NCBI GenBank assembly: GCA_029258925.1
Contig: JAPDJV010000020.1
Span: 62,001-126,000, forward strand
Direction: 5' to 3'
Source: Thermoproteota archaeon
GTDB taxonomy: Archaea; Thermoproteota; Thermoprotei_A; EX4484-217-1; JAPDJV01
Length of the DNA stretch: 64,000 bases
Both the position numbers and the translations under genes were made by a program. Below are positions 287 to 64,000 of this stretch, one piece after another (position 1 is the first letter of the stretch; the number at the start of each line of letters is the position of its first letter). The notes under the pieces are model-generated. The model ran no database searches and had not been told where the DNA came from. It saw nothing but the letters and a program-made list of their open reading frames with translations.

Positions 287-2545
287 ACTGCCGCTGTTGT
301 TAGAGATAAGAGAACTGGAGAATATTATCTTGAAGCCGGGGCGCTAGTGTTAGCTGATGGAGGAATATGTGCTGTCGACGAAATAGATAAGATGAGACCT
401 GAAGATAGAGTCGCCATCCATGAAGCTATGGAGCAGCAGAGCTACCATAAAGATACTGAAATAATTCTTGTAAACGGTGCTAAAGTTAAAATAGGGGAGC
501 TCGTTGACAAGTTGATAAATGAAAGAAGGGAAAAAGTGATTCATGGATACAAGACGGAAATACTTCCAGTAAACAACCTATATTTACTTGGCTACGACTT
601 GTCTAAGAAGAAAACTATTATTGTTAAGGCAGATAGAGTGAGCCGTCACATAGCGCCGGATAAGTTCGTAAAGATAACTTTCAGTAATGGTAGATCCATT
701 ACGGTAACACCTGAACACCCCGTTCTAGTGAGGAATGGAGACGACATTAAGACTGTGCGTGCTGATGAATTAAGAGAAGGAATGATTGTTCCAGCAGTTA
801 AATACTATAAGCTCCTAGAGGAGCCCATGGTTAGGCTTAACGTGCCAGTCAGCTCTACACTACCACGTGCTCTAAACAGTAATCTAGCTAAGCTGTTGGG
901 CTACATGCTTTCAGAGGGCTTGACAGAGTTCTACGGGAATCATGAACTGCGATTTACAACGTCGAATGTCCACATATTTGAGGAATTGAAACAACTATTA
1001 AATGAACTAGGATTAAACTATTTAGTTAAGACTACATCAAATGGAGTAGACAAGCGGGTTTTCGTAATAAAAGTTATGTCGGAAGACTTCTACAGATATA
1101 TTGTTGAGAACTTTCCGGAACTGGCTCCGAGCAGGGATTCTATAGGAGAAGCTGTGAAGAGGAGAGTTCCTTTAAAGATAATGAGAGCTTCCAGCGATCT
1201 TAAGACAAGTTTTCTAAGCGCTTTACTGAATGCTAGTGCTCTCACTTTTGACTCTAAATTAGGGATTCTGGTATCATCAAGAGAGTTAGCTGAAGACCTA
1301 CAAGACTTAATGCTGTCGCTGGGAATACCATCACATATACGCGAAACTAAGTCCAAATATATAGTCTCTCTGCCAATATTAAACGTGAGAGGATTAGAGT
1401 CGACTACATGTGAAATCCAGAAGTCTGAAAACATTGCAGATGCACATGTAAAAGGGCTTAGAGAAGATATTCTATTAAGTAAGGTAGTTAGGCCAGATAA
1501 TTTATTAACTATCCTTGGCGCGCAAGGCTTTGCAGTAAATGTAGTAGAAAACATGCAAAACCATTTCCAGGGAGTAGGAGTCAGCTATTTAGATGGTGGA
1601 GGAAATAGTGTAGAAGACAACATCACGTTTCTGAGAGTAGTTAAAGTAGAGATTATCGCGAACAAGGATTCCAGGTGGGTTTATGATGTAACTGTGGAGC
1701 CGTATCACCTCTTCGTTTCACATGGCTTAATACTGCATAACACTATTAGCATAGCAAAGGCTGGGATTGTTGCAAAACTTAACGCTAGGAGCGCTATTTT
1801 AGCAGCTGGAAACCCTGTTTTCGGGAGATATATACCAGAGAGACCGTTAATGGAGAACATTAACCTACCTGTAACGATTCTGTCAAGATTTGACTTAATA
1901 TTCATCCTAAGAGACATCCCGGAATTGGAGAAAGATACTGGCATGGCTGACCACATATTGAAAGTACATAAAGAAGCCGAACACGTTAGACCCGAAATTC
2001 CACCAGACTTATTGAGAAAGTACATTAGCTATGCTAGGAGATATGTTAAGCCGAAACTGACAGATGAAGCCGTAGAGAAGTTAAAGGAATTCTTCATAGA
2101 AATGAGGAAAAGGAGTGCAGAAAGTCCGGAATCACCTATAACGATAACCGCAAGACAGCTTGAGGCCCTTGTAAGGCTCTCCGAGGCACACGCGAGAATG
2201 GCTTTAAGAAGTGAGGTCACTGTTGAGGATGCTATAGAAGCTATCAGGCTTATGAAGAAATTCTTGGAGAGCGTTGGAATAGATGTGGAAACTGGTAGAA
2301 TAGACATAGACATAGTCATGACAGGAAAGTCTAGGAGCATGCAGGAAAGACTCTCTCAACTAATGTCAATAATTTCCGAGGCTCAAGCAGAAAACGATGG
2401 TAAGCCTGTTAGACTGAAAGAGATCATAAGAAGAGCAGAGGAGATGGGTTTACCCAGAACATGGATCGAGAAAGCTTTGAGAATTCTTAGAAATGAGGGA
2501 ACTATTTACGAACCTAAACCGGGATACGTGTCGAAAGTATCTTGA
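2..2545 (+). CDS. mcm: Replicative DNA helicase MCM, 5'-partial, with two inteins
   Basis: ATP-dependent hexameric 3'-5' helicase that unwinds DNA at the replication fork. The frame is open from base 2, so the N-terminal domain and Walker A lie upstream of the window. MCM extein segments are at 287-439 (Walker B, ICAVDEIDKM) and 1742-2545 (sensor 1 region AILAAGNPVFGRY, arginine finger LSRFD, then a C-terminal winged helix ending at YVSKVS). They are interrupted by the tail of one intein and by a complete second intein. After removal of both inteins the flanks join as uninterrupted MCM sequence. The next gene, hel308, follows after 39 nt on the same strand. The family assignment is secure. 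Confidence 0.95.
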   Translation, partial: KLKILLLKLGIHSSIKKLSDSCFMVEINNLRETVNQLRGKLEVIAFDGGRVRARRHDILWDEVKEVTLTHGEFTVYDMTVKEHHNLLANGIIVHNTAAVVRDKRTGEYYLEAGALVLADGGICAVDEIDKMRPEDRVAIHEAMEQQSYHKDTEIILVNGAKVKIGELVDKLINERREKVIHGYKTEILPVNNLYLLGYDLSKKKTIIVKADRVSRHIAPDKFVKITFSNGRSITVTPEHPVLVRNGDDIKTVRADELREGMIVPAVKYYKLLEEPMVRLNVPVSSTLPRALNSNLAKLLGYMLSEGLTEFYGNHELRFTTSNVHIFEELKQLLNELGLNYLVKTTSNGVDKRVFVIKVMSEDFYRYIVENFPELAPSRDSIGEAVKRRVPLKIMRASSDLKTSFLSALLNASALTFDSKLGILVSSRELAEDLQDLMLSLGIPSHIRETKSKYIVSLPILNVRGLESTTCEIQKSENIADAHVKGLREDILLSKVVRPDNLLTILGAQGFAVNVVENMQNHFQGVGVSYLDGGGNSVEDNITFLRVVKVEIIANKDSRWVYDVTVEPYHLFVSHGLILHNTISIAKAGIVAKLNARSAILAAGNPVFGRYIPERPLMENINLPVTILSRFDLIFILRDIPELEKDTGMADHILKVHKEAEHVRPEIPPDLLRKYISYARRYVKPKLTDEAVEKLKEFFIEMRKRSAESPESPITITARQLEALVRLSEAHARMALRSEVTVEDAIEAIRLMKKFLESVGIDVETGRIDIDIVMTGKSRSMQERLSQLMSIISEAQAENDGKPVRLKEIIRRAEEMGLPRTWIEKALRILRNEGTIYEPKPGYVSKVS
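440..1741 (+). other. Second MCM intein, 434 aa, LAGLIDADG type with degenerate second motif
   Basis: Inserted between AMEQQ and TISIAKAG of MCM, just after Walker B. Splicing signatures are intact: Ser at position 1, block A DTEIILVNGAKVKIG, block B TVTPEHPVLV with its histidine, block F VYDVTVEPYHLF, and the terminal ILHN followed by Thr. The endonuclease region has one recognisable motif, LLGYMLSEG (acidic residue at 913-915). At the place of the second motif the sequence is FLSALLNASA, lacking the expected acidic residue. Inference: it still splices, but homing is probably lost. Confidence 0.88.
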
Positions 2546-5544: not shown

Positions 5545-5639
5545 GGGGCCGTCGTCTAGCTTGGTAGGATGCCAGCCTGGGGAGCCTTAAAGGCCTAGAA
5601 CGCTGGTGGTCCGGGGTTCAAATCCCCGCGGCCCCACCA
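5545..5639 (+). tRNA. tRNA-Pro (GGG) with an 18-nt intron
   Basis: Acceptor stem GGGGCCG (5545-5551) pairs with CGGCCCC (5629-5635), followed by A73 and an encoded CCA. D-arm 5554-5570; anticodon stem CCAGC (5572-5576) with GCTGG (5602-5606); T-arm CGGGG-TTCAAAT-CCCCG (5612-5628). The anticodon loop is 25 nt long. Removing 18 nt at the canonical 37/38 position leaves loop CTGGGGC with anticodon GGG. The 3' end overlaps the converging protein kinase gene by 22 nt. Confidence 0.95.
5583..5600 (+). other. tRNA intron (37/38 position)
   Basis: AGCCTTAAAGGCCTAGAA interrupts the anticodon loop after position 37. GCC-TTAAA-GGC can form the internal hairpin of a bulge-helix-bulge-like substrate for the archaeal splicing endonuclease. 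The exact cut sites are inferred from the requirement for a 7-nt loop. Confidence 0.8.
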
Positions 5640-62692: not shown

Positions 62693-63197
62693 AACTACAA
62701 TGTTTAACGTCCTTGCAAAACTGCTTGTTATTTGGATGAGTATTAACGTACCTTAGGGATGGAGTGGTGTTTCTTTGGAGGTGAATAGGAGCCAGCCTTG
62801 AGATGTATGTTTTTCTCTAGGGATAGAATACCTTCCTTTGCTCGTTTTCGAGAGTTCTCATGAGGTCCATGAAAGGGGAGGTGCATTCATGAGGACTCTG
62901 GGCGGGTTACCACGAGGGAATACGGGCCTCGTGATACGGCTACGATGAACCCGGAAGGGTGGTGTGCACCAAGGCATATGTGGATCCACCAATACTTACA
63001 CACGCCGAATCCCTGAAACGAGGCTTATGTAACTTTTTAAACGTAGTACTTATGGTGTAATCTCAATGAGAATCTTATTAACGCTAATAATGTTTTAACA
63101 CTATTCTAAAAACTATATCTTTGAATATATTGTGTAGGCGGGTTTTTAACCTGGTAGCTTGAGACTAGTAGGTTATCGAGTATTTGGAGGTGGTTTT
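62693..63197. other. 505-nt region without protein gene, with structured RNA and promoter
   Basis: Most of it is the structured candidate RNA at 62750-63038, described separately and clearly more GC-rich than its surroundings. The last 150 nt are AT-rich and hold promoter-like CTATATCTTTGAATATATTG (63112-63131) ahead of the 63198 gene, which has a strong GGAGGTG ribosome site. Confidence 0.5.
62750..63038 (+). ncRNA. Candidate structured noncoding RNA, class not identified
   Basis: Nested helices on the plus strand: TTAGGGAT 62753-62760 with ATCCCTGA 63009-63016; TTGGAGG 62775-62781 with CCACCAA 62986-62992; GCCTTG 62795-62800 with CAAGGC 62970-62975; GAGTTCTCATG 62852-62862 with CATGAGGACTC 62888-62898; CACGAGG 62911-62917 with CCTCGTG 62927-62933; GGGTT 62904-62908 with AACCC 62948-62952. 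G-U pairs favour the plus strand. A T-run follows at 63034-63038. The 3' stretch GAAACGAGGCTTATG resembles RNase P conserved region V, but region I is not found. Confidence 0.5.
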
Positions 63198-63569
63198 ATG
63201 GTTATCTTAGATGTGATATTGAACACATGCATTTTCACAGCTATTGGCCTAGCTCCCCTACTATACAACTACTACGTAGTTAAGAAGAAGTCGGAGAAGG
63301 TGGAGAAAGATGTTGAAGTAGATTTTTCTCCAAGAGTGGAGATGCCTGAAAATGGTGTGATTATCAGCTTGGTTCACAAGGAAAATGTTAGAGCAGACGC
63401 GTCTTCCGAGAACAGTAATGAATATAATAGTTTTCATCAACCATACTATTGTATATTCTTTGTAGACAAGTCTCTTATGAGTTCTCCAGAGAAAATGGCA
63501 GAGTTCTTTACTAGTATTTCAAGGTTTATAGAAGAAACATATTCAAAGATGAATGGGTATGGGAAGTAG
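63198..63569 (+). CDS. Hypothetical protein with N-terminal membrane segment
   Basis: 123 aa. One hydrophobic helix at about 2-24 (VILDVILNTCIFTAIGLAPL), a short basic stop-transfer KKKSEKVEKD, and then a polar domain ending in FFVDKSLMSSPEKMAEFFTS. Start ATG 63198, 5 nt after GGAGGTG; an in-frame TTG 39 nt upstream is not needed. It overlaps the transporter gene by 17 nt. Function unknown; possibly an accessory protein of the transporter. Confidence 0.65.
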   Translation: MVILDVILNTCIFTAIGLAPLLYNYYVVKKKSEKVEKDVEVDFSPRVEMPENGVIISLVHKENVRADASSENSNEYNSFHQPYYCIFFVDKSLMSSPEKMAEFFTSISRFIEETYSKMNGYGK

Positions 63570-64000
63570 GAGAAAAATATTCCAGGTAATAGGTCCTGGA
63601 ATGATAGCAGCCGTAGCTGGCTTAGAGATTACAAATATAGGTATATTTACTTTTATAGGAAGCAAATATAACATTAATCTTCTTTGGATCATAGTTTTAG
63701 CCACGATGATAACTGCTTTTATCCAGCAAATTGCTGCAGAAGTGGGTTTACATGTTGAGAAAGATGTGTTCACATGCACCAAAGAAGTTCTTGGAGGGAG
63801 ATTTTATACCTTACTTGTAGTATCTCTATTTGTCTCTAACGTAGTAACAGCCTCTCTTAATATACTAGGAGCCTCTATAGCACTTGAGCTTCTCTTGGGA
63901 GTGAAGTGGTTTTACTCCGCCCTCCTCATATCCTCACTAACTATAAGTCTCTCTATGAGGGAAAACTATAGTTCCATAGAAAAAATCCTAACAATACTTG
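63553..64000 (+). CDS. NRAMP-family metal transporter-like protein, 3'-partial
   Basis: The frame is open to the window end (149 codons seen). Start ATG followed by GMGSRRKIFQVIGPGMIAAV. Several hydrophobic segments follow in the NRAMP arrangement, with helix 1 GPGMIAAVAGLEITNIGIF. The canonical DPGN metal motif is replaced here by EITN, which suggests a diverged subgroup (for example NRAMP-related Mg or other cation carriers). The first 17 nt overlap the preceding gene. Confidence 0.75.
   Translation, partial: MGMGSRRKIFQVIGPGMIAAVAGLEITNIGIFTFIGSKYNINLLWIIVLATMITAFIQQIAAEVGLHVEKDVFTCTKEVLGGRFYTLLVVSLFVSNVVTASLNILGASIALELLLGVKWFYSALLISSLTISLSMRENYSSIEKILTIL

Follow-up and report, generated by a model that had tools for sequence, protein, structure and literature searches.

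We report a structured RNA region in a 64,000-nucleotide stretch of DNA (the window) from a Thermoproteota archaeon (contig JAPDJV010000020.1, positions 62,001 to 126,000; assembly GCA_029258925.1). Its segment 62790-63013 (plus strand) very probably derives from the 3′ terminus of a transposon of the IS607 family and is a diverged, solitary omega RNA (reRNA) scaffold, which best explains the observations as a whole. We place it among archaeal IS607 omega RNA scaffolds because it shares a covarying fold, terminates at the element right end, and belongs to a set of copies whose flanks differ from one to the next. On sequence comparison, the family is a putative archaeal IS607 scaffold that is absent from Rfam 15 and does not match RAGATH-18, although the kind of RNA is itself known. 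An apparent orphan RNA is, with high probability, traced to a mobile element, and the work also yields a model of the family and a collection of solitary scaffolds from genomes also carrying intact TnpB.

Relatives and conserved fold

A preliminary description of the window had singled out region 62750-63038 as GC enriched, lacking open frames, and favoring the plus strand, and these three claims held. Its GC content is 0.495 (0.40 window-wide; equal richness in just 0.27% of 289-nt windows), and it contains zero open reading frames of at least 60 amino acids. The plus strand of 62753-63016 folds more stably than all 484 window tiles (at 37°C and at 75°C) and better than its own minus strand; the covariance model match reported below is also on the plus strand. 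Compared with dinucleotide shuffles, the gain in stability is modest (z about −2.1 for the plus strand of 62753-63016 and −0.86 for the exact span 62750-63038), and the RNase P and SRP RNAs of the same genome reach z about −4.6 with GC contents of 0.67 and 0.68; the signal is therefore real, yet weaker than that of a well-kept host structural RNA. The single-sequence fold was dominated by a terminal helix (UUAGGGAU/AUCCCUGA) and a 14-bp hairpin (AGAGUUCUCAUGAG/UUCAUGAGGACUCU), neither of which corresponds to the conserved helices. The pseudoknot proposed earlier between GGTGCA (62880-62885) and TGCACC (62965-62970) is present, but at chance level (15 such 6-mer pairs observed; about 8.6 ± 3.7 expected), and it is not conserved in relatives, where GGAGGUG supplies the 3′ strand for another, covarying helix (X).

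Plain BLAST of the region against 60 relatives, phages, and plasmids returned short chance matches or none; a match in genome G001 lay inside a coding gene, and one on contig C21 of the window's own genome looked coding too. A covariance model of the single window sequence (R1), run over 229 genomes of the class, had a single clear match at full length (G163; E, 8e-10) and weaker full-length matches in G187, G016, and G037. A second model (R2) was made from five relatives with the window copy left out (alignment A4) and matched the window copy at full length (56.4 bits; E, 7.6e-14 in 80 kb and 1.7e-12 in the genome). Strong full-length R2 matches in the own genome were limited to contig C1 (260 bits), contig C16 (101 bits), and the window copy, the next best being an antisense match of hairpin T (26 bits). 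R2 matched in 66 of the 229 genomes of the class (E, 0.01) and in 41 of 300 genomes sampled across the phylum (E, 1e-8).

In copies with an intact IS607 tnpB, the RNA overlaps the 3′ end of that gene. At the G163 locus, a serine recombinase and a TnpB zinc ribbon lie directly upstream of the RNA match, and the last part of an open 449-codon TnpB overlaps the match in G016. A complete element is present on contig C1, made up of TnpA (a serine recombinase with an N-terminal MerR-like HTH; MerR HTH, 1.4e-9; Resolvase, 1.1e-27), TnpB (447 amino acids; TNB domain; matching TnpB with phmmer against the PDB), and the RNA, which overlaps the last tnpB codons. The tnpB of the C16 element is disrupted. 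Among 25 copies, an open tnpB frame of 437 to 457 codons ends inside the RNA in six, one of them in the own genome (C1). The own genome has 16 matches to a Cas12f1-like TNB domain, a number of them within long open frames, and so carries several TnpB genes of different kinds.

Five helices (Y, X, P, Z, and T; Table 1) were derived from alignment A4, that is, without the window copy. Over 27 aligned copies, 90.9% of cells are paired (at most 53.7% for slid versions of the structure), two-sided changes are seen at 32 of 44 pairs (11 of the 12 in hairpin T), and covariation reaches a score of 0.445 (0.185 shuffled; at most 0.142 slid; 0 of 500 shuffles equally high), figures that lean towards the structure because the alignment was fitted to the model. 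In a MAFFT alignment made structure-free, the pairs of helix Y are almost wholly replaced between copies. The 3′ domain is closed by helix P, whose right-end GAACCCC is near-invariant and reads GAATCCC in the window copy. The scaffold structure is backed by covariation, a check suggested in the preliminary description, and the window copy keeps 34 of the 44 pairs.

Table 1. Features of the probable omega RNA scaffold in the window
Feature	Position	Strand	Basis
Omega RNA (reRNA) scaffold, diverged solitary copy (probable)	62790..63013	+	Full-length match of model R2; 63013 is the element right end
Scaffold 5′ part	62790..62815	+	Alignments A5 and A6; in intact copies also codes near the TnpB C-terminus (motif CTTaAGATGtgTGg)
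Helix Y	62816-62825 with 62893-62902	+	8/10 pairs in window copy; covaries across 27 copies; encloses X
Helix X	62828-62835 with 62877-62886	+	8/8 pairs in window copy; covaries across 27 copies
Helix P	62904-62908 with 63008-63013	+	5/6 pairs in window copy; 95.7% of cells paired across copies
Helix Z	62917-62924 with 62937-62944	+	4/8 pairs in window copy, versus 5-8/8 where tnpB is intact
Terminal hairpin T	62974-62985 with 62994-63005	+	9/12 pairs in window copy, three mismatches
Host flank at guide position (TGAAACGAGGCTTATGTAAC)	63014..63033	+	Comes after the conserved right end

Likeness to characterised TnpB RNAs

All 4227 Rfam families (Rfam 15), RAGATH-18 included, were compared with the window copy and five relatives, with no match to the scaffold; over the window RNA region, Rfam returned nothing up to an E value of 10 save one irrelevant Legionella RNA. 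The earlier claim of a plus-strand structured RNA outside any Rfam family is borne out, and its suggestion of a new RNA stands in that Rfam lacks the family but falls in that the kind, a TnpB omega RNA, was already known. RAGATH-18 has been described for IS607 TnpBs, mostly bacterial (PMC11061315). The RAGATH-18-derived reRNA/omega RNA of ISFba1 likewise lies on the 3′ side of an IS607 tnpB and combines a multi-stem scaffold (about 190 nt) with a 20-nt guide (PMC11061315), whereas the window copy and the intact archaeal copies match no Rfam family. The archaeal copies differ further from the RAGATH-18-derived RNAs (PMC11061315) in coming from one phylum and overlapping the last tnpB codons, and the window copy in being solitary and decayed. 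The ISDra2 TnpB reRNA consists of the tnpB 3′ end, the right end, and about 16 nt of flank (PMC8612924) and so, like the archaeal RNA, matches the tnpB 3′ end and right end and continues into flanking DNA as guide; ISDra2, however, is an IS200/IS605 element with a Y1 TnpA, and the likeness is one of anatomy. The omega RNAs of Sulfolobus islandicus TnpB (PMC10640517) also come from a hyperthermophilic archaeal TnpB and have a conserved, hairpin-bearing right end followed by variable 3′ guides, but are assigned in that paper to IS200/IS605 elements, and here the likeness is by description of the RNAs. No account of this particular scaffold was found among the open-licence literature searched. 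Since the family is absent from Rfam, intact and solitary archaeal copies go unannotated and resemble orphan structured RNAs.

By homology, the window RNA would work like a TnpB omega RNA, with the guide function that this implies. In intact copies, the 3′ end doubles as the last tnpB codons and the omega RNA scaffold. By analogy with characterised TnpB systems, the transcript would fold into the scaffold and bind TnpB, the 16 to 20 nt past the right end would act as guide, and TnpB would cut the same site in DNA that lacks the transposon, favouring retention or copying of the transposon. The window copy drifted partly under retained base pairing and then lost parts of helices Z and T.

Element ends, decay, and solitary copies

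Among the 25 other copies examined, GAACCCC or a variant (a close one in most) closes the scaffold, and no two share the bases that come next; the scaffold end is the right end, and the non-conserved bases past it fit a guide drawn from the flank. In the window copy, the guide position (63014-63033) contains the motif that had been likened to RNase P region V (GAAACGAGGCTTATG, 63015-63029), which is host flank, and has a T-run at its far end. This T-run (63032-63036), earlier taken to end the RNA, falls beyond the right end. The first 16 nt after the right end have their own locus as sole exact match in the genome, and allowing 2 to 3 mismatches gave numbers of own-genome matches about equal to a reversed-pattern control on one strand and higher on the other, with no clear target.

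Beside the window copy there is no tnpA, tnpB, or recognisable left end (eight left-end comparisons; p, 0.017 to 0.84). With the own-genome TnpB as query, tblastn found no TnpB remnant or surviving frame in the window copy, and the window has no TnpB homology upstream that would link this copy to a tnpB. A left end (AAACTGCTTGTTATTTGG at 62718), first thought retained, was unsupported when scored against shuffles, and no left boundary is therefore claimed. When the substitutions of the window copy were redistributed at random over stem positions with an identical starting base, the real copy kept more pairs than such random placement in comparison with every relative tried (P, <0.0002 to 0.025). 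Part of its divergence thus arose under selection for pairing, and this share may date from the element's mobile life rather than from this insertion. The window copy is most probably a relic with weak activity or none.

Among the 25 copies, 6 have an intact tnpB, about 10 have no tnpB beyond the codons overlapping the RNA, and the remainder are fragments or cut by contig ends. A left-end motif common to tnpA-bearing elements, in which it precedes tnpA (AAAC.GTTAAATATT), recurs with at most one mismatch in solitary copies (L134/L182, L154, L219, L221, L225, L227, and L151); scaffold-only derivatives with both ends therefore recur. At L151 (G037), two omega RNA copies are oppositely oriented and separated by less than 1 kb (554-744, minus strand; 1554-1718, plus strand). 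At locus L133, positions 2542-2597 match the C/D box RNA family sR20 below threshold (29.7 bits; gathering threshold, 44).

These solitary copies bear on another reading, in which the window RNA is a functional stand-alone omega RNA gene with its own transcription, loaded in trans by the C1 TnpB and guided to the Nramp-operon flank or to an empty site. The genome does hold this intact partner TnpB, about 10 relatives elsewhere keep the scaffold without an upstream tnpB (several with the AT-rich left-end motif of intact elements), and the window copy has retained pairing beyond chance; yet its helix Z is half broken, its hairpin T has three mismatches, its score is 56 bits (C1 copy, 260), a left-end or promoter motif is not demonstrable in it, and its guide has no second genomic match. 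We consider such a gene unlikely. Somewhat more doubtful still is a wider scenario, in which archaeal IS607 elements would have spawned many tnpB-less omega RNA units (scaffold plus guide) under structural selection, one TnpB serving them in trans; the window copy, next to the Nramp operon, would then be an old unit potentially able to bring TnpB to that locus. Guide use in trans could be tested directly in genomes that pair one intact TnpB with several solitary scaffolds.

Genomic neighborhood and host RNAs

The order hps, spacer, small membrane-protein gene, and Nramp is kept in G001, G002, G003, and G006. In the window, the small membrane-protein gene (63198-63999; no Pfam family) lies upstream of an Nramp transporter, and the pair comes after hps and pyrG in the same four genomes. 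Their syntenic spacers are shorter, AT-rich, and without homology to the window RNA, which fits an insertion in the lineage of the window. A transposon-independent origin, as a host RNA or as a leader regulating the Nramp operon, would account for a position upstream of these two genes but not for the non-homologous syntenic spacers, nor for homologs that sit in IS607 copies, and is very improbable. The hps protein, searched against genome contigs, matched distant organisms only.

The hps-Nramp spacers of G001 and G003 (L049 and L051) have in common a 145-nt noncoding stretch (79% identical) that ends at the TATA-like box of the operon and is possibly a regulatory region of the Nramp operon; 97 nt of it are common to the G002 spacer (70%). 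TATA-like stretches also occur in the window upstream of the 63198 gene (CTTTTTAAAC, CTAAAAACTATATC, and GGTTTTTAACC, at 63030-63041 and 63107-63150), and similarity to the promoter region of G002 (80% across 35 nt) is seen for the stretch near 63107.

That the window RNA is a diverged RNase P RNA, as the preliminary description had suggested from GAAACGAGGCTTATG and its resemblance to region V, or an SRP RNA can be dismissed: covariance scans with RF00373 (archaeal RNase P) and RF01857 (archaeal SRP RNA) gave no match in the region, Rfam gave no relevant match here even at an E value of 10, the genome has its full RNase P RNA on contig C10 (202 bits) and its full SRP RNA on contig C9 (189 bits), and the relatives of the window RNA sit at tnpB 3′ ends. 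Elsewhere in the window, positions 5545-5636 match a tRNA with a 21-nt insertion near the anticodon stem, which is probably an archaeal tRNA intron.
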